A stretch of DNA of 64,000 bases, taken from Gaeumannomyces sp. JS-464 (taxonomy: Eukaryota; Ascomycota; Sordariomycetes; Magnaporthales; Magnaporthaceae). This document shows positions 13,319 to 37,600 of this stretch, piece after piece; within the stretch, counting starts at the first letter, position 1; the number at the start of each line of letters is the position of its first letter. Location of the stretch: positions 3,720,001 to 3,784,000 of the forward strand of contig NGZR01000004.1 of the NCBI GenBank assembly GCA_002197995.1, written 5' to 3'. The notes beneath the pieces were generated by a model, which worked only from the letters and a program-made list of their open reading frames with translations, had not been told where the DNA came from and ran no database searches. A program made the translations under genes and the position numbers.

Positions 13319-16300
13319 CTAGAGGAGTCTGCGCCTTTTCCGTAGAAAACCCTCCTTCAACTCCGCCAAATCCAAGTCGTAACCAGTCTTGGCTGCCTTG
13401 TCCCGCAACAGTTGTGCCATCTCTCCATAATTCCAAGACACGGCAATGTCGAGAGCGCTGGGGTATGGGCGCCCGTTGCCACGCGCATTCACATCGGCCC
13501 CCGCGTCCAGCAACATGCACGCCACCTCGAGGTGACCGCGCTCAAGAGCGATATGGAGAGGATAGCTGGCTTGCCCATTGTCGTTTGAATTCACGTTGAC
13601 CCCCATGCTTAGAAGTCGTCTTGCAAAATCTACGTCGCCCACATCTAATGCGGCCCCAAGAAGGCCCGGTAGCCCAAAACCTGCCTCCATATCTGCCCCC
13701 TTGTCCAGGAGCAGCTGCTTGATGTCACCACGGCCTCCTCTTACTGCTGCCTGGAGCGCAGTGCCGTGCGGCGGGCCACACGCGTTGATATCGGCTCCCT
13801 TGTCGAGTAGCAGTCGCACCAGATCCTGGTAGCCGACCCAGGATGCAGCAATAAGGGCGGTTCCATATTCGCCGGCCTGTAAATTTACATTGGCCCTCCT
13901 GTCGGTAGCAATCGCGCCAGGTCCCGGTGGCCGCTTTTGGATGCAGCGATGAGGGCGGTTCCATATTCGCCGGCCTGTGCATTAATGTCGGCTCCCTTGT
14001 CGAGTAGCAGTTCCGCCAGGTCCTGGTGGCCGCATGTGCATGCAGCGATGAGGGCGCTTCCATGTTCGCCAACCCGTCGATTAATATCGGCTCCCCCGTC
14101 CAGGAGCAGTTGCACCACGTCCTGGTGGCCGCCATTGGATGCAGCAATAAGGGCGCTTCCATGTCTGTCGTCCCGTCGATTGATATCGGCCCCCGCGCCG
14201 AGCAACCTTTTCACAACGCCCATATGGCCGTGGGCGCATGCGGTAGCAAAAGCAGTGCCCATTTCGCTTGCTGTTAGGTTGATATCGGCTCCCGCTTCCA
14301 GCAATCGTCGTATGACATCCAGGTGGCCGTTTTCCGATGCCACGCCAAGAGCAGTGCGCTCGACTTTAGCTCCGCCGTTTAATAGGAGCTCGACGACGTC
14401 GTAATGGCCTCCTTGCGATGCAGCAGTAAGAGGGGTGTGTCCATAGCCTGCAGCATTAATATCGGCACCCGCAGACAGCAACTTTTGCACAACGCCCATA
14501 TAGCCGCGGGCGCATGCGGTAGTAAGAGCGGTACCCATTTCGCTTGCTGTTAGGTCGATTTTGGCTCCCGCTTCCAGCAATCGTCGTATGACATCCAGGT
14601 GGCCGTTTTCCGATGCCACGCCAAGAGCAGTGCGCCCGTTTAGACTCCGTGCATCGATTTTAGCTCCGTAGTTCAACAGGAGCTCGACGATGTCGTGATA
14701 GCCTCCTCGCGATGCAGCAGTAAGAGGGGTGTGTTCACAGCCCGCGGCATTAACATCGGCACCCGCAGACAGCAACGTTCGCACAATTTCCAGACGACCG
14801 TCGCAGCAAGCAACCACAAGAGCAGTCTGGCCCTTTCTTTCGCTTTTAGTATCGATGTCGGCCCCCATGTTTAGGAGTAATTGCACGAATCCGAGTTGGC
14901 CAACCTCTGAGGCTGAATGGAGAAGAGTTTGATCGCGCCAACTATACATAGCATTGCAAACGAAACCGTCTGCTTCGCCGTAGGTTTGCACATTACGTGA
15001 GTGCTTGAGGCGCAACGTCGTGGGGGCCGCCTCACTCTGAGCGAGCGTGCTTGGCAGAAGACGCCGGACAACTTTATCAAATCCCCACTCGTCGGCTAGA
15101 TTCAGCAGAGGCCTGCGATCCGGGTCCATCGAATGGGGATGGTTCGGGGGCGCGCGGAAAAAAACGAGCATTAGCTCAACGATATCTTCCGAGTCGTCCT
15201 CCGCCATGGCGACTGCAGCATGGTGCATCCAGTATTGCCAGGCGTACCGATTAAAGGAGCCACGCCTAAGGTCACCTCCAGATCGAATGAAAAGCTGGAG
15301 TTGAATCAAGCAAGTCCATGTGATTGGCCTGCTCGCCGCCGCGCTGCTGAAACCTGCTCGCTCAAGGAGGTATTCTTTGACAGAGAAGTGGGCGAGACTC
15401 AGTTCTTTAGTAGAGTCATCCACGCGAACCAGTCCGGGGCAGTGCTTGAGAAGACCGGCTTGGTTGAATGGCCTTCGTCCAGGGTCGAAATCTCGAGCTC
15501 GAGGGGGTCGACCCGTGTGGCTATGACATCCATGGCTTGACCGACGGTCAACGGTTCTTCAGCATGAACAAGAAACTGAAGTAGTCGGATCGCATCTCCC
15601 ATGATCTTGGTCGGAATCTTCGCCATCATGCGATCATAAGTTTCCTTGAGGTCTCCGGCTTTGGGTAGATTTCGGAGAGCCTCCTCAATAGCTTGCGGGC
15701 TGATACACTCGGCAAGCTCTTCTAGTTGGCATTCCGCCCATCTGAACCTGAACGAAGTGTTAAATATGACGCAAATCGGTAGTGTGGGTTCAATGAGCAA
15801 ACCTTACATGCCGTCTGCCCTGTCTCCGACCTTTCTGGTGATTAGGTCGACGAGATGATCAGGGAGGTTCTTGTCGACAAACTCGGACCAGTTTTTGATC
15901 TTTGCCGTAATGTAAGAGCGGATGTCTGCGTTGACTCCTCCTTTGTCCAATGGTATGCAGTTCTCTTTCCCGATCACAAGGGGCATTTTCTGCTCGAATT
16001 CGGGTTCGGGTCGGCTGGTGAAAATCAGCCGGACGTGCTGCAGCTCTGTTCGGTCCCTCATGTCTTTGATCCATTTCATAATATCTCCTTTCTTGGTAAT
16101 CGACTCATCCAGGGCGTCTACGACGATAAAGACCTCCTTTTGGTCGGCGAGCATCCTGCAGAAGCTGCCCTGCAGGTGCTCCTCCGTCGGCTGATCCCCA
16201 GACACTGGTACCGCGCCAGCAGAGTCGCCATTGGAAGTGAGCTGCCATTGGTACGTCTGGAAGACTAGCGAGCGCAGCATAGCATCCAAAGTCTGTTTTT

Positions 16301-17809
16301 CGGGGTCGCGGAAGTCGAAGAAGAACTTGAGGATAAGACGACCATCGACGGCGGTGTCCATGAGGTAACCAAGAACCGCGGCGCAAAGAACCGTTTTGCC
16401 GCAGCCCGCGAGCGCATGCAGCCATAATTGTGGACGGGAGCCGGAGCAGCACTCCTGGAAGGCCAAATCCTCCAGAAGCCATGTGCAGGTACCGGGGTGG
16501 CGAAGCCTATCCGCGAGGTTGGCGTTTGTGGACGCATCTGCAGGGCGAAGCCACTCTTTCATTTCTGTGATTCGAGCCTTGAGGACGCGATCTTCGAGCT
16601 TTGTCTGAACCGAGAGCGAGACTTGGTGCAGACTATCGACCTTTTGTTCTGTTCGCTCGCACGATGACATCATCGTTGTTAGCGTAAGAAAGGACGGAAG
16701 AATGGTAAAAGCAGAAAGGATCTAAAGGGAAATGGAGCAAATATTTGAATCGAATCTGACAGGATGAAATAATACTACACACCCAGCGACGACATCACGT
16801 CCTTGATGGTTTTCTCTTCAGTAACGCGGTCGGGTGTGATGTGTTGCAAAAGATCCTTTGCATAAGCTGCCGCCATCATAGCCGCATAGCCTTGCCACTC
16901 GTCATTTTTGTGCGAATCCGAATAATCGCAAATGCCCCGAATCACCAGGCAGGGGAAAGTATTCATTAGACCGGCCGCCTCCATTTCGAAGCAGAGGACA
17001 CCCTTCTTAGCCAAGCCGTCCCGAACACAAGCATCTTTCATGACCTGGTTCGCGCTCGCAATCAGGCCATAATGTATTACGGGGTCGTCCTCTTCCTCGT
17101 CCCGTTCGCGCCGTGGAACTAGGTTGCTCGGGTCGTCACCGCAAATTTCTTTGCAAGGTTTCTCCGATGCATCGTGGTTCGGCTGCTCTGGATTCGGGTG
17201 TACATGGTGCGAGCGGTACAGCCTGTCGCTGTCTTTGGGCGGACGAGAGTACTTTTGGCGCAGGCGGGGGTTGTCCTTCAATATCTGATCCAGCTGGGCC
17301 TTGAACTGGTGACCGTCTGGTGCGTGCTTTACTTGCAGGTCATTGACAGCAGTCAAAAGCGTCGCTGGCGGCTGGTTCAGTGACCCCGTAAGTTGGAACT
17401 CCTTGGCCTGGATCGTTCTACCGAAGTCATACTGGAGCACACCGCCATTGCCATCGCCCGGGCTGCTGACAACAACGTCGCCGAGGCGTATATCGTGCTT
17501 CGGGAGTCTCGGTGCACCCCCTCCGATGCCAACCATAAGCCCGAGGCGAACGTTGGGGAAGCTATTGATCATATGGGTGGCTACGACGGCCGCTGACGCT
17601 GTGCCTATATTTCCCATGGGCAGGCAGGCCATGACAACATTGTGCGGCCCGATACTGCCTAGGGTATAGCTGTTGGTATCGCTCGGATGGCGGGATGTCG
17701 GTTTGTCATGCTTCTTATCCAGGAATCGGGAGGCAGCGACCAGCTCGGTTTGGAGGGCAGCAATCCATCCGATTGTATACTGAGTGTTCGGAATGGAATC
17801 CGACATCAT
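13319..17809 (-). CDS. NLR: PNP_UDP - NACHT - ankyrin repeats (3 exons, two -1 frameshifts)
   Basis: Model: complement(13319..15747, 15808..16648, 16783..17809). Exon 1 is a nucleoside-phosphorylase-like effector domain (TIGWIAALQTEL start, MVGIGGGAP, CFEMEAAGLMN, RGICDYSDSHKN). Intron 1 (16649-16782, GTGTGT donor, GCTAAC branch) joins it in phase to a coiled-coil linker and a NACHT domain with Walker A (AGCGKT, about 16395) and Walker B (VVDALDES, about 16115). Intron 2 is 15748-15807. At least ten ankyrin repeats follow. Frameshifts lie at a G5 run (15503-15507) and at about 13901-13908; both behave as single missing bases. With them counted the total is 4,299 nt, exactly 1,433 codons. Fungal PNP-NACHT-ANK proteins are STAND receptors involved in non-self recognition and programmed cell death. 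The start is the first of two adjacent ATGs that open the PNP fold. It may be a pseudogene if the shifts are real. Confidence 0.85.
14290..14840 (-). repeat. Homogenised ankyrin-repeat block with 276-bp periodicity
   Basis: About 65 nt encoding the NGHLDVIRRLLEAGA ankyrin unit is nearly identical at about 14291-14355 and 14567-14632. The flanking TPLTAAS and TASEMGTA units are duplicated in the same order. The offset is 276 bp (92 residues), so a block of nearly three ankyrin repeats was duplicated, with a small deletion in one copy (RSLNG missing). Confidence 0.8.
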
Positions 17810-19325
17810 GGAAGGAGTATCGAGGTGGGTTTGGAGGAGCAAAGATGCAAGTAGATAGTAGAAGGAACGGCAATAGCAGAGAGGCAGATGAATGCCAGGA
17901 AATCGAGTGGAAGAAGCAGACGGCGTGGAAAAGAAAGCAGCGCGCGGAAGACAGGGGTGAGTTACCAAGACGACAGAGCTAACGGTTCGATGGTAGGAAA
18001 AACCAGAGCAGCAGTGTTCGTCAACTTGGGCGGTTGATCTGATATCAAAAGGGTAGTGATGGTATTTGAACATAGATGGTTCTGCGTGGTATCGCGCAGA
18101 GTGGATGAAGACAAAGGCGGAACAAGGGGGGAAACCCGGCCATCGAGAGGGGGAAGTGCCCTGAATCCCCTCTCTGCCTCCCCTCCTTCCCTAGGGAGGC
18201 CGTCGGTTCTTGGAGGGTGGCTTGCAGACAGGCAGCCGCTTGCGGCAGGTTTAACCATCTATGGTTCATGATTGGTACAGCCGGGAGTTGGGTGGGTAGG
18301 AATATCACAAAAGCAAGCTGTTGGGCGCTACCTGGCGCCTGTGGATATTGCACAAAGCCTTACCGGCTGACACAAATGGGGAAAACGGGGCGGGGCGGGC
18401 AAGAGACTGCCTTGTCCAGGTTAGGGGCGCGTGACAGCTTGGGAGGGGGATGCAAACCTCGTTCCAACGGGATATCAGGAGCAACGAGCGGGTGTTTTCA
18501 CTCCGGAAACAGTTCGATAGAGACATCGTGGTGGAAGTGGTGCCCAGGCACCCAGGGCTCCGGGATGTCGGAAATTATTGTTCCAAGGCCCCCCCCCCCC
18601 CCCCCCCCCCCCCCGATTGCTGAAGCTCGCAGGGATGGCTTGGGGGATCATGTGGCCCATTCGTTAGGTAAGGTAGCTTGAAGACTGGACGCGGCCGACA
18701 AGTTTCTCGTGCTGGAGGACAGCGATGAGGGCTGATTGCGTTTGTTTTGTCATCGCAGGAGACGAGGGGTTTTCGAGATCAAAGATTCCATAGTGATGAT
18801 TATTGTGATTATTACGGTCTTCCATTGAACAGGCAATCCTTCCTCTCAGATTTGGAATCACTCAAGGCTGCATTGAGTACCTGCGTAAGCGGGGCGAGGC
18901 CGTCTCAAAAATGTAGCGGGGTCCAGATCGGCGAATTTCATGTTGGCTTGTCCCCGAAGCCGGCCGGCGAACCCACCCCGCGCTGACAAACCGCCATCCG
19001 CCATCCGCCATCCGATTTGATTCCCGCAAAACCTGGACGAGTCGACCGACCTTTGCTTGGCCTTGAGGCGAGCAGCGTATGCATAAATAGGTACCACTTA
19101 AACGGCGAACTTTGTTTGAGCAGCCAGGGCGACGGGCAAGGCAAAACAAACAACACAACCTCCACGAAGCAAACCGCCAAGCTGTTCTCCTCGACCTTCA
19201 GACGCACCCTTCGGTCGAGCGGCCCCGGTTTCTCCGCCGCCATCGCCGCCGCCGGGCTCAACAAGCAGCAAGCCGCCCGTCCGAGCGAGATCCAGTCCAC
19301 CATTGGCGCCGCCGCGAAACGAACC
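17810..19325. other. Intergenic promoter region with poly(C) tract
   Basis: This lies between the divergent NLR and thioredoxin reductase genes. It contains a 26-nt poly(C) run at 18589-18614. ORFs here are products of the homopolymer or low complexity. The last ~145 nt (19182-19325) are open in frame with the thioredoxin reductase ATG and are described separately. Confidence 0.6.
19182..19325 (+). promoter_or_regulatory. In-frame 5' extension resembling a mitochondrial presequence (non-AUG start)
   Basis: The frame upstream of the thioredoxin reductase ATG stays open back to 19017 with no ATG. From the CTG at 19182 (A at -3) it reads 48 codons rich in Arg, Ser and Ala and nearly free of acidic residues, beginning LFSSTFRRTLRSSGPGFSAA. 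That is typical of a cleavable mitochondrial targeting peptide. Translation from this near-cognate codon would give a mitochondrial isoform of the cytosolic enzyme. This is inference from composition and frame only. Confidence 0.4.
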
Positions 19326-20505: not shown

Positions 20506-20920
20506 AGTTTCCGCGAGCGCTTCGGTTCATCTCCCGGACTATTCGTGTGGCGTCTTGGCCAATATTTGTTGCATGGACAGACACTGCTTAGAGGCGTCGG
20601 GTTTTTTTCATTTATAGAGAATGTGTATAGAAAAATTAGACTGAAGCGATTTTGGCGGCTATTTCTGGGAATAAACAAGAACAAAAAGAGAACAACCTCA
20701 ACACCAGGAGACAACCAAGGGCATCAATCGCTGCGATGTGATTTTGTGTGAAAGGGGAGGCAACAAATCGAAAACTAGCCAAAAAGTTGCAACCTGGCCA
20801 TGGATAATGGATTAGAATACCTGTAAAAAGGCGAGAGTGAACAAAGGGCTAGAGTAAAAACACAGGCAAAAATAATCGTCTTGTTCCGGAGCTTGAACCG
20901 GATTGCTGAGACCTTATAAT
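20506..20920. other. Thioredoxin reductase 3' region
   Basis: A/T-rich 3' flank running up to the tRNA gene. No coding sequence is supported. Confidence 0.6.
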
Positions 20921-20993
20921 GCTCACTACCAGGGTCGAACTGGCGACCTTCGCATTATTAGTACGACGCTCTAACCAACTGAGCTAAGCGAGC
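20921..20993 (-). tRNA. tRNA-Ile (anticodon AAU)
   Basis: A full 73-nt cloverleaf on the minus strand. The acceptor stem GCTCGCT pairs with AGTGAGC (one G-T pair). The D arm is GCTC/GAGC, the anticodon stem TCGTA/TGCGA with loop CTAATAA (anticodon AAT), and the T arm GCCAG/CTGGT with TTCGACC. There is no intron. It sits between the convergent thioredoxin reductase and Vps53 3' ends. Confidence 0.95.
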
Positions 20994-29400: not shown

Positions 29401-29940
29401 CCCCCCCCCCCCCCCCCCCCTGTTGTCTCCCGGCACGGTAGGTGGCTTGCCGTGAAGCATTCTCCTTGGCTTCTCCATAGACCATTGCCAGCAATGCATG
29501 CCTCTTCGAGGTGTGCATATCGACATCCACTGTTCCGTCTTCTCTATCGGCGTGGATGTTTTCGCTCTGGCATAGAAGAACGTATTTTGCGGACCCGTTT
29601 TACTGGGCGCCCGGTTTTGAGAGGACGTTTTGCTTCTCTACGAGACTTCGGGAATCAGTAGTGGTTACACCTTTTGTCGTCGAAAATTCGTCTACGTTTT
29701 ATGTTCATAGGTTGTTTTGTCCTTTGTCGTAGCGAGAGTATGTTCATCGATGCATCATCATATGTCCGACCTCCGGGTATTGCCCACCTAGACCTAGTTG
29801 GTAGTAGGGAGTGAGGTCGAAGGATCAAAGAAACAAAAAGGAAGGAGGAAGAGGCCCAGCGGCATATTACACCAAGAAGACGGAGTGATCATGCTACCCG
29901 CGACAGCTCCAACCATCACCACCAGAACAAAAGAAACAAA

Positions 29941-30059
29941 ACATACAACACTGGGAATTCCCCGGTGGTCACCCACCTGAGTACTAATCTGGCCCTCATA
30001 TGTTTTAGTACTTGGAGTGAGGGCTTCCTCAAATGGACGATTTTCCATTCAAAACGGAC
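29941..30059 (-). rRNA. 5S rRNA-like sequence, probably a pseudogene or variant
   Basis: Read on the minus strand, the 3' half matches fungal 5S rRNA closely: GAGGGCCAGATTAGTAC, then GGTGGGTGACCACC (the internal control region) and GAATTCCCAGTGTTGTATGT followed by T-rich sequence. The 5' half is poorly preserved; I cannot find the usual ACATACGACCAT start. Dispersed 5S genes and pseudogenes are normal in Sordariomycetes. Confidence 0.6.
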
Positions 30060-30204
30060 GCCTTTGCTCCCGCACTCTGACTACCGTTCGAAGGACGTAT
30101 CTGACGTCTCGAACCCCCGGATCGGCGTGAGTCACTGTAACGGGGCCGCCTGGAGCGTTAGCTACAGGGGCTTCGGGGCTTGATATACAGTGGTGCCAAA
30201 GGGC

Positions 30205-30223: not shown

Positions 30224-30300
30224 ACTGTTGGATCTTTTAGTGGAACGGTCACTCTGGCACGCCCCCTACACAAACCTGCTCGCCTGGTAAAACATTGTAG

Positions 30301-30690
30301 GTGCTTGTGCGATCGATTGCTTTAGCCGCGAGTGCGTTTAAGAAGTTCCATTTCTGTATCGCGTACTAGTTGTAAGCGATTAGTTCGTAGCAGTCGCTTC
30401 GCTCGTACATCCAACAGCGGAATGGGATCTGCCTTTGATCAAAAATATAAGTGACAGGACGGCAGCAAAAATGCGGTGGACGGACACTGATGCTGTTCGT
30501 TGGGCGGGGCTGCATTTGCCAGCTCCAGCCTACCCGCTACGTACGTCCCGGTGCCCGACCCTGGCGGCGCAGTGCCCGAGCAATAGTAGCTTGGGGAACA
30601 GTAGCTCAGCCGTCTTTTAAAGGCGGACATGGCCCGGGGCATCGCTTGACCTTTTATATGCCCCGCCTCGAGCGCCTTGCGTCCAGCTGG
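30301..30690. repeat. Left arm of inverted repeat flanking the HET-S-like gene
   Basis: Matches the reverse complement of about 32415-32756. Shared blocks include GTGCGATCGATTGCTT, ATCTGCCTTTGATCAA, GGACGGCAGCAA and GGTGGACGGACACTGATGC, then TAGCTCAGCC and GACATGGCCC. There are many transition differences and a short indel. The right arm covers the NLR promoter up to its ATG, so this is a duplicated, inverted copy of that promoter region. Confidence 0.8.
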
Positions 30691-30961: not shown

Positions 30962-31849
30962 TTATTGTGTTCCAAGCTCTTTCTCCTGTCCAGGAGCATC
31001 GTAGACGGTCTTTGCGTTTCCGTACCCAATCGTATTGCCAAAGTGAGTGATTGAATGCCCACCAGCTGTGATCCCCCTGAACACATTGCTTCTCGCGCTG
31101 GCCCCGTCCGCAACGATGTCACCAAACTGTCCGCGAGAGTAGTCTTTCACTACGATGTTGCAAAAGAGGTTGGGACGCTGCTGGGCCTCAGCTTGGAGAA
31201 CCGCTCTGAGCATCTCGTCGTCGTCCCCGATGGCCTCGTCCAAAAGAGCCAAACTCTCGATGTCCAAGCCCCTGACCTCGCTTTTACACAACCGCTTCTG
31301 AGCATCGCAGGTTGACGGAAAGAGCTCCACCAACTGGCTTGTGAGAGCAGAGATCGTCTCGATCAGGTTCTGGAACGCGCCTTTCTGGTAAAGAGCCCAC
31401 TTGATCCGGTCTCCCACTTTGGGCTTGACGCGCCGGTCGACCATTCCGCGCATATGCTTGTGCAGCGTCTGAACCGCGCCGCTCCCTTTGCAAAGCAGCG
31501 TGTCCGTGTCCAGAACCTGAAGCTTCTCGGGCTTGGCGATTCGCTTGTACCGCGCCGAGGTCTGTATCGCAGAATCGAAGGCTTGCTGGATTTCGAGAAG
31601 CCAGCGGTAGGCCGTTTTGACTTCTTCTTCATCGTAGCCGTCACTGCGAAACTTCGTCTCTGGATCCCCGATGCCCATGGATGCCCCCCAGCGCGTCAGT
31701 CGCATCTCGGAGGCTTCAAGTTGGCACCATGTTCTTTCAAAGTCGCTCTCGAAGTCGCGTCCGAACTGTATGCGCTCGAAACAGTCCACGCAAGCCGTGA
31801 ATGCCCCGGGGATGCCAGCTACGGCAAGAGCGAGGCTGACTGGTTCCAT
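30962..31849 (-). CDS. HET-S-like protein: HeLo domain plus two HRAM amyloid-type repeats
   Basis: Single exon, 295 aa, about the length of Podospora HET-S (289 aa). Residues 1-220 align by eye to the HeLo domain: an N-terminal hydrophobic helix, AFTACVDCFERIQFGRDFESD, RLTRWGASMGI, KWALYQKGA and a Glu/Asp-rich end. The C-terminal 70 residues hold two pseudo-repeats with the HRAM pattern: SRGQFGD (238-244) and SITHFGN (near 266-272), each followed by a small, Gly/Ala-rich segment. In the known system, HeLo is a membrane-targeting cell-death domain, held inactive until the C-terminal motif is templated into a beta-solenoid amyloid. The divergent neighbour is an NLR carrying a matching N-terminal motif, so this is its probable effector. 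The frame is intact and it is not RIP-mutated. Family assignment is strong; amyloid formation is inferred. Confidence 0.88.
   Translation of the reverse strand: MEPVSLALAVAGIPGAFTACVDCFERIQFGRDFESDFERTWCQLEASEMRLTRWGASMGIGDPETKFRSDGYDEEEVKTAYRWLLEIQQAFDSAIQTSARYKRIAKPEKLQVLDTDTLLCKGSGAVQTLHKHMRGMVDRRVKPKVGDRIKWALYQKGAFQNLIETISALTSQLVELFPSTCDAQKRLCKSEVRGLDIESLALLDEAIGDDDEMLRAVLQAEAQQRPNLFCNIVVKDYSRGQFGDIVADGASARSNVFRGITAGGHSITHFGNTIGYGNAKTVYDAPGQEKELGTQ
30986..31171 (-). other. Two HRAM-type prion-forming pseudo-repeats
   Basis: Residues 227-288 of the HET-S-like protein. Repeat 1 is centred on RGQFGDIVADGA and repeat 2 on GGHSITHFGNTIGYGN. Both share the aromatic-Gly-Asn/Asp turn typical of HET-s beta-solenoid rungs. 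Confidence 0.75.
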
Positions 31850-32414
31850 TGGTCGCTTTATAAACAGTGTGCTAGTAGGTAGGTGTTTTGGGTCAGCGGA
31901 TGCCGCTCAGGTCCCAATAGGGGGTGAGGGACAGAGGAGAGGAGCTGGCCGGAACAACTGACCGCGAGAGGCAAGGCCATGGAAGATAGGAGGACCAGTT
32001 GCCTAGAAGTGGCGGCGCAGTAGATTAGCCGGCACGCAATTTGGTGGGCGAGGGTCTACATAATCCACCACAAGGCGCGTGTGCAACAAATCAAAAGGGC
32101 CAAGGCGTGTATGGTGGTTCACTTGCAGCAGACAGGCGATTGATGGAGCCGTTAGGCTTCGCACTCTGATCAATCGGATAGGATAAAGTAACCACCCTAC
32201 AAGCAGCCTTTAACGAGCCATGGCCTGCTCTTTGCACTCGCACGTATGCTCTGTCTAGGTCCACAACCAGGCCCAATTCCACGAGTGACGCGGATAGGGC
32301 GTGCCGACAGGCAACGGTAGGCCGTCAATGTCGGGCGGCGTGCAGCAACCATTATCAGCCTCCAATACCATCAGGCGGTGGCCTGAATAATACGTGGACT
32401 GGGCGGATGCCAGC
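31850..32414. promoter_or_regulatory. Divergent promoter region of the HET-S-like / NLR pair
   Basis: The two starts face away from each other and are 904 bp apart (31849 and 32754). The half next to the NLR is the right inverted-repeat arm. No conserved operator can be named. Shared regulation is inferred from the layout. Confidence 0.5.
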
Positions 32415-32756
32415 GAACGATGCAGCTGGTGGTGTGCAAAGCTCAAGGCGGGCATGTGGAAAAAGTAAGTGATGTTCTGGGGCCATGTCTGCCTGTGAAT
32501 GGGAAGGCTGAGCTATGCTTCCTCCGAGCTCCTCCTATTGCGGGGCAATGCACCACCTGGGTGCATCAGTGTCCGTCCACCGAATTCTTGCTGCCGTCCC
32601 GTCATTCATATTCTTGATCAAAGGCAGACCCCATTCGGTTGTTGAATTTACGAGCGAAGTGGCCGCGACAACCTGGCGGCTAGCACGCGATACAAAAACG
32701 GGACTCCTTGAACGCACTCGCGACTGAAGCAATCGATCGCACGAGCATTTACGATG
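32415..32756. repeat. Right arm of inverted repeat, overlapping the NLR promoter
   Basis: Reverse-complement partner of 30301-30690. It ends at the NLR start codon; similarity does not continue into the HRAM-coding part. Confidence 0.8.
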
Positions 32757-34611
32757 TCTATTCTGATGCACGGCACTACTGTCGGGGGGAATGCTGCAGT
32801 TCACGTCGGAAACAACGTCTTTTTACCTGCAGAAAATGCAGCCCCAATGTCCCACCGGGTCATCCCGTTTGATCGCAACCTAGATGTCGTCGTCCGCAAT
32901 AGCATCTTCGCGGAGCTCGAGACACTGCTTCCGACGTCCGCCGCTTGTCGGAGCGCCGCCCTCTGGGGTCTTGGCGGGTCTGGGTAAGTCAAAGCGGCCA
33001 GCGCTTAAGGGCAATGCTGGCTTTGGCAATGCTGACGGACCTAGAAAAACGCAGGTTGCACTCGAGTACGCCTGGCGCCGCGCTTTGGACCCCGCCTGCT
33101 TAGTCTTCTGGGTGCATGCGGATGACGAAGCCACGTTCGCGCAGAGCTATAAGAAGATTGCAGAGGAGTTGGGTTTGGGAAACTTCGAAGGGGAGAAACT
33201 CCTGGTAGAGGTGAAGGAGCGGATCCAGGCCGAGCCATGCTGGGTACTCGTCCTTGACAACGCGGACAATCTTAAGCTGTTTGGCGTCGGCCAGGCCTCG
33301 GCAACGGCCAGCCTGAGTGGCTTTGTCCCACGCGCCGCGACGGGGACAGTGCTATGGACGAGCCGTGACGAAGGGATTAAAAGACTCGTCGGACCACCGC
33401 GGGCTATCAACGTTGCCCGTATGACAGACAAAGAAGCGATGACGCTGCTTAAGACGGCCTGGGGCACGACCATCGGCGACCAGATGGACGACGCGAAGGC
33501 CCTCCTTTCGAGCTTGACTGGCTACCGCTCGCGATCTCGCAGGCTGCGGCATATTTGTGGCAAACCGACACGCCGATCAAGGAGTATCTGTCTAAACTGC
33601 GGGACGGCAAAAAGCGCTGGGAGGTGCTTAAGCAGTCACAATTCGACCGGCATCGCCGGGTCGACGTGCCGAATAGCATCCTCGAAACGTGGGCCATTTC
33701 GATCGAGCAAATCCGGAGTAAAAGCAGCATAGCATACAACATCCTCCACGTCCGGGCTTTTTTGGACAACGAGAAAATTCCGTTTGAATTGATCCAGAAG
33801 GCAGCGACCTTGGGCGACGGTAATGGCGGCGACGATGAATGCGTCTGTAAGGCTGCCGCCCGTCTCCGACAATTCTCTTTCTTTACCAAGCGTGCAAACG
33901 GGCTTGTGTACGACATGCACAAGCTCGTCCAAGAGGCCGCACGGTACAGCCTGAAAGAGGACGCGGCGTATTTCGCGCGGGCAGCTCTCCGCGTAATGGC
34001 AGATTTGTTCCCCGAGCGGCGGTGGGAGCTGTGGGACACGTGCGAGAAGTATCTTGTGCATGCGCAGCGGGCAAGCGAGTGGGCGGAGCTGTCTGGGCAG
34101 GCGGTGAGACGGTGAGGCTTTTGATGCGTTTTCGTCGTGGGGGGGGAAAGAAGGAGGCTGTGGATGTAAAAGCGTTTAAGCTTGGAAAAAAAGCGCTCGA
34201 TGAAAGGCATCCCGACATGATCCGAAGTATGGCAAACCTTACGGCGACATATCACGGCCAAGGGAATACGAGATGCCAAAAAAAATTAACGTCGAAGTGC
34301 TGGCATTGCGGCGCGAGGTGCTAGGCGAAAAGCATCCCGACACGATCTGGAGTATGGCGGACATTGCAATAACATATTACGCCCAAAGGAGGTACGACGA
34401 TGCCGAAAAAATCCACAAAGATGCTTTAGCACTACGGCGCGAAATTCTAGGCGTAAATCACCCTCATACATTTTTAAGTGTACATTACCTTGCACAAACA
34501 CGTTACATGCTGGGCCAGACGAAAGAGGCAGCAGAGATGATGCACGAGTGCTGCGAAAAGCGGCGTGTTGTTTTAGGCGCGGACCACCCGGACACGCGAG
34601 AGAGTGAGTGA
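32754..34611 (+). CDS. NLR: HRAM - NB-ARC - TPR (truncated, three -1 frameshifts)
   Basis: join(32754..32983, 33045..34611); the GTAAGT intron is 61 nt and its splice completes the P-loop GLGGSGKTQVALEYAW. Residues 1-25 contain GTTVGGNAAVHVGNNV, which matches repeat 2 of the divergent HET-S-like protein (T-x-G-G-x4-H-x-G-N). NB-ARC features follow: VFWVHADDEATF, WVLVLDNADN (Walker B), GTVLWTSRDE, then WLPLAISQAAAYL and MHKLVQEAARY. TPR units of the kinesin-light-chain type come last (YDDAEKIHKDALALRREILG...HP.T). Frameshifts lie near 33508-33513, 34101-34110 and 34264-34285, each as one missing base; with them counted the length is exactly 600 codons. The TPR array ends abruptly at the LINE boundary. 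The protein would sense a ligand and template its partner's amyloid motif. It could be a pseudogene. Confidence 0.82.
32772..32828 (+). other. N-terminal HRAM motif of the NLR
   Basis: Residues 7-25, centred on GGNAAVHVGNN. It matches repeat 2 of the HET-S-like gene (GGHSITHFGNT) at the G-G, H and G-N positions. In described amyloid-signalling NLRs such a motif sits at the extreme N-terminus, as here. Confidence 0.72.
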
Positions 34612-37600
34612 GTAAGTGAGTATATTTAACGTCAGCTAATCGGGATCTACCAGTCCCTGCCTCCCAAGGGGCATATGACGTGCTAGCGCTACCTAAGCTT
34701 AACACTAGGCTATATGCTGCTATCAAGGCGGCTAACAAATTAAACCCGAAGGCACACGGGGGTCGGGCCGCATTCCGGCGCTCCTTGTTAGCGAGCGGGC
34801 AATCGGCAATCGGGCGTAAAAATACGCCGGGGCGTTGTAAAGCGCTGCGGTGGTAGTAATGCTGTTGGCCGGCGGGTATGCCGGAAAAGGGGTAAAGCCG
34901 GGTTTGGGCGGGGGAGGGGGTTTTCGGGACCTCCCCTGGGCCCGGCCTAAAGTGCGGGGGATTAACGAGCTTACTGTTAATCCTAATAGTACAAAGGAAA
35001 AGGTTAAGTATAGGCTTTTTGGGCTTTGTTATTATCGTCCGGCGATAATATAGTAGTTGGTGGCTTTAACGAACGAAGCAAAAAGGGAGGGCTTTTGGAA
35101 AAGCCGTTTTAATATCCGGGCTTATCGAAGGCCGGGGGAGGGTCCGCTATAAGCTATTTGTTTTTTGCCGCCCTCGCCAGCTTGTAAAATACATGGTGGG
35201 AAGGGGACTTATTTCGCCCGCAACGGCACGGGTTGTCGTCTTCGTGTTAACCTTCGGTAGTACTAGTCGAAATCCCCGTGGCCGGTGCGTGCGGCTATTA
35301 ACCGTTGCAGTACCTTCCGGTGCAATTGCAACGTTTCGGGCGTGTGTTTAGTACCGGCGGGAGGCCTATAGCCTTATACCGATTTGGAAAGTTGTTTTTA
35401 AACCATGCGTTTCGGGCGTCCCGGGTTGTTTTCCGGGCTAAAGCTTTTACTTTAGCCACCGTTTTAAAATGTTAAAGTATTAGCAAGGCCGATTAATTTT
35501 GCTTCGGCGTTTGCCTTTTCGTTTCGGGGATTCCCATATAGCCCGGGAACTAACGTACGTATACCTGGTGTTTATTTATAAAGTAATGGATTTTTTTAAA
35601 AGCTTTTGTAAATTGTTAAAAGCCGTGTTTAAATAGCCGTTAGCCGCCGAGGTGTTATCGAAGCACAAGTGGAAAGTGCAATTGCGGAAATTCCAAACAG
35701 CTTTACGGAGGCCCATTCGGGCCCTTTCCGCTTTGCCGTCGAATATTTCCGCCGAATGCGCTAACCGGCCGTGCTCGGAAAGTTTGCGTTAGCCGGTTTG
35801 GTATATTACCCAGCCGTATTTAACTGCCCCGTTTTTTGCTTTAAACCCGTCGTTATATATTATAACGTTAGTAAGTGGAAAAGTGCGAAGCCACGTTATA
35901 AAAGCTTTTACGGCTGCAGGCTTTTCTTATATAACTACCGTAAGCCTCGTATATTTATAAAGGATATAAGCCGGGCGAATGCAAGCTGGAAGGAGTTCGG
36001 CTATCCTTTGCAACGAGGTTGCAAGCTTGCCGGGTAGGTTTACTTTAGGCCTTCGAGCGTTAAAAGCCGGCTAAACCGCTGCGGCTAAAGGGTAATTTTC
36101 CAGTACCGTATTTATACGGGCCGTAAAACGAAAGCGGGTTTGTTTTAAAAGCGTTTGGGCGTTTAAAATGCCGAATTCGTAATGTAAAGCGTTTATCGGT
36201 GCGGTTTTCCAAGCCGGAGCTATTGCCCGAAAGGACGCGGTTAAAGCTTTATCGACCCGTTCGATTAAATGGCCTTAGCGGATAATTTGCTATTGTGCCG
36301 GCTTGTAAGGATGTGGTTTAGTTTTGCCTTTATACCACACTTCGGCCTCGTATAAAGCCGTAGGGATTATAACCGTCGTAACGGCTTGTAAACCGAGTGT
36401 GCCGGTACCCCCCTATCGAGTTCGTAAGCTTCCGGAGGTAGTTAGCAACGCTTTGGGCTTTTGCAGCCTTATTATTAACGTAAGCTTTAAAATTAAGCCT
36501 TTGGTTAAAAAAAACCCCTAACTACCGTAAAACTCTTATAGCTTGTTAAATGGTAAGGCTTTCCGCCGTAACCGTTAAAGTTATAGGGTTTTTCCGTTTA
36601 AAAAATGCATAAGTTCGTACTTTCCCGGGTCGAAAGCCACTTTGTTAACCCTTCCTTAACGTAGGATTTCCGTTATTGTAACCCTTGCTTTACGAAAGCA
36701 CTTTTTCGAAGTGCTACCCGTTACGCAAATGCCTATATCGTCCGCGTATTCGTACTTAACCGCTTTTGCTTTAGGTAGGATTTCGGCCATATAAAGTATA
36801 AACAAAACCGGTAACGCCGGTAACCTTTAGGGTAGCCCGCAGTTCGGGGAAAAAGGGGGTGCCGTAGCGTTTTTTAAACGCATTTTAACCACCTTGTTTT
36901 TTGCAAAAGATAATACCCATCGTACTAACGTTAAATCCTAGCCTTAGTTTAAAAGCTTTCGAAAAAGCCTCCGGCGGAGTACGGCGTCGAAAGCTTTTTG
37001 TACATTTATGGTAACGAGGGCGGCCGTTTTATGCTTTTGGAAGGCCCGTTTTACCTCGTAAGCCACGCATGCCGTTAAATCGATGGCGGCCTTTTTCGGG
37101 GTAAACCCCGGCGTATTGCGAAGCTATAAACCCGTATTGTAATACGAAAAACGCCATTCGCGAAGTTACCAGCCGCTTTAGCCCTTTCCTTAAGCACGGG
37201 AGCAAAGCTATCGGGCGGTAGGATTTTGGGTTCGTTATATCCGTTTTGTTCGGCTTTTTTAGCATAACCACCTCCGTTATGCGGAAAAGGTTAAAGTGGT
37301 GCCCGGCTTTAAAGCAGGCTTCGAAAAAGCCTTAACGTATTCCTTTATTGCCGGCCACGCCGTTATAAATAGCTTAACCGTTAAAAGTCGACGCTTAGGG
37401 CCGTGTTTACCGTGCTAACGGTGCATTTCCGGCATTTTTCCAAAAGGACGTAGGAGTTTTACGGGAGTTGTGCGGTTTTTAGGTAGCCCTTTAATATAAC
37501 GGGTTTTTTTATAAGTTGTTTTCCGCCGTAAACCTACGAAGGATTTTGCGGCTTAATGCTTCCGCTTTATCCTTTAAGGCTATTATAACCTCCCCGTTAA

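Follow-up and report, generated by a model that had tools for sequence, protein, structure and literature searches.

A probable HET-S/NWD2-type locus with an intact HeLo effector gene and a frame-broken NB-ARC-TPR receptor gene in Gaeumannomyces sp. JS-464

Introduction

Do a HET-S-like effector gene and the receptor gene beside it in the fungus Gaeumannomyces sp. JS-464 make up an amyloid-signalling pair, and is the pair still whole? The two genes occupy positions 30962 to 34611 of a 64,000-nucleotide stretch of contig NGZR01000004.1 (positions 3,720,001 to 3,784,000, forward strand; GenBank assembly GCA_002197995.1). We call this whole stretch the window and use its numbering throughout. The source assembly consists of 53 Mb in 34 contigs, and the window lies on the contig that we labelled C29; its introns and the relatives of its genes mark the source as a filamentous fungus.

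In Podospora, a ligand-bound NOD-like receptor (NLR) clusters its N-terminal motifs into a beta-solenoid that templates the tail of the effector, and the HeLo domain of the templated effector then attacks the membrane (PMC4344463, PMC7885112, PMC7889193, PMC4518210). A preliminary description of the window had proposed a functional pair of this kind. We find it likely (probability roughly 0.7) that the locus is of the HET-S/NWD2 type: a HeLo effector that is intact and carries the tail repeats r1 and r2, beside a divergently oriented, frame-broken NB-ARC-TPR receptor gene whose N-terminal motif, R0, matches r2.

Results

The effector gene and its HeLo domain

We found that the effector has the size and domain of published HET-s-related amyloid motif (HRAM) effectors. 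Those proteins have an N-terminal HeLo or HeLo-like domain and, in the published set, are under 310 amino acids (PMC4518210); the effector has 295 amino acids and an N-terminal HeLo domain (Table 1). The solved structures nearest in sequence were the N-terminal domains of HET-s and HET-S (2wvn, E 5e-28; 2wvo, E 1e-27; with 2wvq, the three chains span E 5e-28 to 5e-26). A structural model built from 17 sequences (mean predicted local distance difference test score, pLDDT, 80) matched chains of the same three entries by Foldseek (2wvo, E 1.8e-12).

The effector is without sign of decay. We collected 97 HeLo proteins, including 13 close relatives of the effector (49-82% identity). The nearest named relatives are from Fusarium and Penicillium; P0002 and P0003 (Fusarium decemcellulare, F. 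albosuccineum) and P0013 (Penicillium expansum) resemble the effector in having HeLo and both tail repeats, at 49-61% identity. At 87 alignment columns at least 12 of the 13 relatives agree, and the effector deviates at five of them; the relatives, given the same treatment, deviate at 1 to 16. The gene is probably still constrained. The genome contains 11 HeLo matches, this effector included. With the effector as query (E ≤0.01), six other places in the genome were found, and the tail was matched in none.

The tail repeats

We found two tail repeats that follow the published pattern in part. In our numbering, which matches that of PMC4518210 to NWD2 residues 3-23 (PMC4344463), the motif spans positions 3-23 and its glycine stands at 19. 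HRAM effectors have two imperfect 21-residue C-terminal repeats, joined by a loop of 6-18 residues in 154 of 155 published proteins (PMC4518210). Spacing between r1 and r2 was seven residues, inside this range, in all 14 sequences (the effector and its 13 relatives). The published pattern has hydrophobic residues at positions 5, 8, 10, 16 and 18, glycine at 19, and a preference for arginine or lysine at 15 (PMC4518210). Positions 5, 8 and 18 were hydrophobic and position 19 was glycine in both repeats of all 14 sequences. Position 10 was hydrophobic in 14/14 r1 and 9/14 r2 repeats (alanine counted; the others have glycine), and position 16 in 1/14 and 11/14, respectively.

Charges in the two repeats were complementary. 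At equal positions from 3 to 20, the 14 sequences gave 13 pairs of opposite charge and none of like charge, and the best of eight slid registers gave 7 opposite and 3 like. None of 10,000 permutations of r2 among the sequences reached the observed sum, a frequency that is not a strict probability because the sequences are related. Such an anti-correlation has been reported for r1 and r2 and was read there as in-register stacking (PMC4518210).

The tail also resembled those of other HeLo proteins. We aligned the profile of this tail and those of 12 of the 13 close relatives (alignment A2; P0013 left out) with a profile of 74 other HeLo tails, namely those from proteins longer than 240 amino acids among P0017-P0091, drawn from 84 more distant HeLo matches. 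The hhalign score was 31.1 (P 1.5e-5; probability 79.7), with both repeats in register. None of 200 column-permuted controls reached this score (maximum 24.7), and the reversed profile scored 13.7. One of the 74 tails, P0035, has a precomputed match to PF11558, the canonical HET-s prion domain. This alignment and the in-register charge complementarity relate the tail to the HRAM superfamily.

The receptor motif R0

The receptor begins with a motif that matches r2. The genes are divergent, with 904 bases between their start codons; Podospora het-S and nwd2 are also divergent, with a gap of 0.6 kb (PMC4344463). Everything that the preliminary description had listed, a HeLo protein with two tail repeats beside an NLR bearing a matching N-terminal motif, was present at the expected place, and the letters of TxGGx4HxGN are identical in R0 (TVGGNAAVHVGN) and r2 (TAGGHSITHFGN). 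An r2 profile built from the 13 relatives, with this effector left out, gave R0 16.1 bits, the top place in the first 235 residues of the receptor. When receptor residues 1-60 were shuffled 20,000 times, no shuffle reached this score. The search for receptor relatives gave 569 matches, and comparisons below are among the 120 that were listed; none of the 91,796 segments scored in these 120 reached 16.1 bits, and the best scored 3.5. The locus thus contains an adjacent NLR with one N-terminal copy of a motif that is like r2 and not like r1. In HRAM1 and HRAM4, R0 has been reported to be nearer r2 than r1, and in HRAM2 nearer r1 (PMC4518210). The r0 motifs in print hold few charged residues (PMC4518210), and R0 has none of the four residues D, E, K and R. 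Its glycine is residue 19, as in NWD2 (motif residues 3-23; PMC4344463).

Other receptors of the NB-ARC-TPR type had starts of their own. Seven from Colletotrichum (P0155, P0159, P0178, P0181, P0183, P0191 and P0214) share a start of the form GPLxGQxVVAGMxVSGGTANxHFHH. It is possible that this start, and the short starts particular to other clades, are further signalling motifs.

The receptor gene and its frame changes

We found that the receptor is not full-length. We compared 10 of the 120 listed relatives with the window by tblastn. They matched it in four pieces and three frames, with changes of frame near 33,513, 34,106 and 34,265. After exon 1, the match in the first frame ended at 33516 in nine of the ten relatives and at 33525 in P0124. 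The second-frame match started at 33510 (33483 in P0124) and ended at 34106 or 34091. The third-frame piece was short, ending at 34264-34300 in most relatives, and the first frame resumed at 34267, some high-scoring segment pairs being a few bases off. With the predicted intron removed, the reading frame that opens at the start codon meets a stop at 33732, by which point it has covered R0 and half of the nucleotide-binding domain.

These changes were not explained by introns. The residues of the relative P0098 run on across the first two changes (249/248 and 491/492), and no intron-sized gap is missing; in the relatives the alignment carries on uninterrupted from piece to piece, and for this reason we rejected introns as the cause. 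Four of the tblastn queries served as a control and matched two other NB-ARC-TPR loci in the genome (L012 and L014) in one frame over at least 660 residues. By its sequence, the receptor gene is probably a pseudogene in this isolate, and the pair is probably non-functional here.

The receptor type was recognized partly by Pfam and partly from relatives. TPR repeats were found by Pfam (Table 1). For the nucleotide-binding region the receptor pieces gave only AAA_22 and DUF7779, both below cut-off (DUF7779 in the 33510-34106 piece, E 1.6e-5, 1.5 bits below), and PF00931 was absent. P0108 and P0111, among other relatives about 50% identical to the receptor, have both PF00931 and TPR. Among the listed relatives, the nearest named one is from Ilyonectria.

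The receptor coding sequence ends at an island that resembles the product of repeat-induced point mutation (RIP). From about 34.6 kb to the end of the window, in 2-kb bins, TA/AT was 1.3-2.0 and (CA+TG)/(AC+GT) was 0.40-0.88; before the island the ratios were 0.6-0.7 and 1.2-1.3. We take the ratios past the receptor end to be a RIP signature. The receptor itself is not RIP-like. Both this island and the three frame changes had been overlooked in the preliminary description.

Elsewhere in the genome, contig C12 (loci L010 and L013, about 1372654-1373019) holds a stop-bearing relic of a related NB-ARC receptor; its match covers residues 28-76 of the receptor and the beginning of exon 2 and leaves out R0.

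Table 1. Features of the effector and receptor locus, in window coordinates
Feature	Position	Strand	Remarks
HET-S-like effector gene	30962..31849	-	one open frame, 295 aa, intact
HeLo domain PF14479, residues 6-202	31244..31834	-	Pfam E 5.7e-36; Foldseek of model to 2wvo_A
Tail repeat r1, residues 227-247, NLFCNIVVKDYSRGQFGDIVA	31109..31171	-	counterpart in 13/13 close relatives
Tail repeat r2, residues 255-275, NVFRGITAGGHSITHFGNTIG	31025..31087	-	counterpart in 13/13 close relatives
R0 motif, receptor residues 1-23, MSILMHGTTVGGNAAVHVGNNVF	32754..32822	+	without D, E, K, R; conserved glycine at residue 19
Receptor exon 1, 76 codons plus 2 bases, to within P-loop	32754..32983	+	relatives match to 32984, same frame
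Predicted intron GTAAGT...TAG, between GLGGSG and KT of P-loop GLGGSGKT	32984..33044	+	
Receptor exon 2, first half of NB-ARC-type domain, in frame with R0 once the intron is removed	33045..33516	+	P0098 residues 77-249, 58% identity
Receptor piece, second frame, remaining nucleotide-binding region	33510..34106	+	P0098 residues 248-491, directly after 249
Receptor piece, third frame, start of TPR array	34106..34264	+	P0098 from residue 492, directly after 491
Receptor piece, back in exon 2 frame, TPR repeats, stop	34267..34611	+	TPR_10 E 1.8e-29, TPR_12 E 1.4e-25
Left inverted-repeat arm	30292..30493	-	copy of receptor upstream region up to ATG, 82% over 202 columns
Right inverted-repeat arm	32563..32757	+	receptor upstream region, ATG included

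Discussion

In its anatomy the locus resembles HET-S/NWD2 of Podospora anserina (HRAM1). Both have a HeLo effector with two C-terminal repeats, in both the receptor gene is divergent and opens with a single copy of the motif, and the Podospora receptor is broken in all wild het-s strains (PMC4344463). Unlike the receptor here, NWD2 is a NACHT-WD protein (PMC4344463), and PF11558 misses the effector here. HELLF/FNT1 of the same species (HRAM5) has an NB-ARC-TPR receptor with R0 and an effector with C-terminal r1 and r2, and HELLF fibrils have the HET-s fold despite 17% repeat identity (PMC7885112, PMC7889193). It differs in that HELLF has a HeLo-like domain, whereas the effector here has a HeLo domain, and the portions of those papers used here do not mention a break in FNT1, whereas the receptor here is broken (PMC7885112, PMC7889193). 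In Arthroderma, HeLo effectors adjoin NB-ARC-TPR receptors and the two proteins have a terminal motif in common; that motif is the pseudopalindrome PP, whereas the tail here is a two-repeat, HET-s-related one (PMC3321046). The assignment to the NB-ARC-TPR type stands, on the TPR match and on the relatives with PF00931, and the novelty that had been seen in it does not, because the FNT1/HELLF and Arthroderma pairs are published. The proposal of a HET-S/NWD2-type pair held for the anatomy, for the likeness of R0 to r2 and for the likeness of the tail to HRAM, by profile comparison and charge complementarity. It was not supported on function: in this assembly the receptor has three frame changes, and the two control loci are unbroken. 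The distinct HRAM class that it also raised may exist.

We suggest the following mechanism by analogy with Podospora. The receptor would once have clustered upon binding a ligand, and the clustered receptor would have acted as the seed for a predicted beta-solenoid amyloid of the effector tail. The amyloid tail would likely turn the HeLo domain into a membrane pore, so that the effector is likely lethal to the cell that makes it once the tail has become amyloid. Since the receptor is probably a pseudogene now, the effector would answer to another trigger or be kept for a receptor-independent role such as allorecognition. Podospora offers a precedent for an intact effector next to an inactivated receptor gene: every wild het-s strain carries nwd2 as a pseudogene, marked by a transposon scar (PMC4344463). 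Forms of NWD2 without the repeat domain, strongly expressed in yeast, seed without ligand (PMC4344463).

Several observations weigh against this interpretation. The r1 profile does not pick out R0: it gave -8.4 bits, a score matched by 460 of 20,000 shuffles and equalled by 10 of the 120 receptor relatives. A search among receptor-sized proteins for starts like R0 or r2 gave 206 candidates, none at E 10, and this is a weak test because a 23-residue motif hardly reaches significance against 5.8 billion sequences. Departing from the published pattern, position 16 of r1 is glycine in 13 of 14 sequences, and position 15 is positive in 8/14 r1 and 0/14 r2 repeats. Position 1, which lies just outside the motif and was left out of the charge count, has like charges (R and R) in 10/14. 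PF11558 had no match to the effector at E up to 10; it matches 38 and misses 117 of the 155 published two-repeat proteins (PMC4518210). A search of the PDB with the tail profile returned one chance chain (E 0.86), and the HET-s prion domain was not found at E 10. The model of the tail has strands at 4-6 and 16-18 and at 32-34 and 44-46, two sets with equal spacing; it is of low confidence (pLDDT 59) and had no Foldseek match.

The frame changes could also be assembly errors. The pair would then be functional, an intact NB-ARC-TPR receptor seeding the effector tail as is thought for FNT1/HELLF. Long-read assemblies often err at homopolymer runs, and stretches of eight consecutive G (34139-34146) and eight consecutive A (34278-34285) are found close to changes two and three; conservation of the effector also fits this explanation. 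However, the first change (33510-33516) is without a long homopolymer, and both control NB-ARC-TPR loci read in one frame, and we consider assembly error unlikely. Just as unlikely, in our judgement, is that the effector is now a het-s-like allorecognition or prion gene whose receptor has been lost, the tail amyloid of one allele triggering the HeLo domain of the other at fusion. A conserved, intact effector adjoining a broken receptor is what this would leave, but the residue aligned with HET-s position 33 gives it no help. At this place (effector residue 32) the effector has D, and every one of the 14 family members has D or E. HET-s carries P there and HET-S carries H, and the residue thus does not show which kind of allele this is.

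The effector might instead be driven by a receptor with a matching motif encoded elsewhere in the genome, as amyloid signalling between non-adjacent genes has been suspected (PMC9815663). We think this slightly less probable again: exon 1 as query (E ≤10) found only itself and the C12 relic, in a search of low sensitivity for a 23-residue motif. Finally, the likeness of R0 to r2 might come merely from glycine-rich short N-termini common in this clade of receptors. Several relatives do have a somewhat similar stretch (for example SVSGGTANVHFHH in Colletotrichum), but the best of those listed scored 3.5 bits against 16.1 for R0, which makes a shared background of this kind very improbable. Our results are most consistent with a HET-S/NWD2-type locus in which the receptor has been broken.

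A bolder proposal goes further, and we regard it as doubtful. H17 and G19 in r2 and R0 could mark a sixth HRAM variety, and the locus could have independently repeated the history of het-s: a receptor killed by frame changes beside a transposon island, and an intact, constrained effector left on its own as a prion-type death gene that serves allorecognition. Two things may be new here, the variety of motif and, for this effector family, the haplotype with a broken receptor. The literature search, which covered titles and abstract openings, gave none that names the family, and we do not claim the motif as undescribed. If our main interpretation is right, the locus offers an additional variety of tail and receptor motifs for testing what sets the barriers to amyloid cross-seeding. 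It would also be a further HET-S-type effector intact beside a dead receptor, which would make it possible to test whether the proposed evolution of an immune pair into a prion incompatibility gene has happened repeatedly.

Other features of the window

An inverted repeat flanks the effector gene (Table 1). Its right arm is the region upstream of the receptor, and its left arm lies beyond the 3' end of the effector. Genome-wide, it was found at only two places, the arms themselves, and for this reason we rejected a dispersed transposon (the search skips very common words). By tblastn over the whole window, no receptor coding sequence was found beyond the left arm. Most simply, the repeat would be left over from another copy of the receptor or from a local inverted duplication. 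Just past the left arm, a 5S rRNA-like stretch (29940-30065, minus strand) scored 27.2 bits (E 0.004), below the family gathering score of 38, and is probably a relic.

The RIP-like, AT-rich island covers about 29 kb (34600-64000), with no open frame of at least 220 amino acids beyond 35065. One frame in it (37029-37331, minus strand) looks by eye like a piece of a long interspersed nuclear element (LINE) reverse transcriptase; it had no Pfam match at E 0.01. On the other side of the locus, Rfam gave a tRNA gene at 20920-20993 (minus strand). Three successive open frames on the minus strand at 13888-18190 matched PNP_UDP_1 (16778-18190), NPHP3_N/NACHT (15807-16721) and ankyrin repeats (13888-15558), and together they make up a second gene of NLR type, which lies about 13 kb from the effector and receptor pair.

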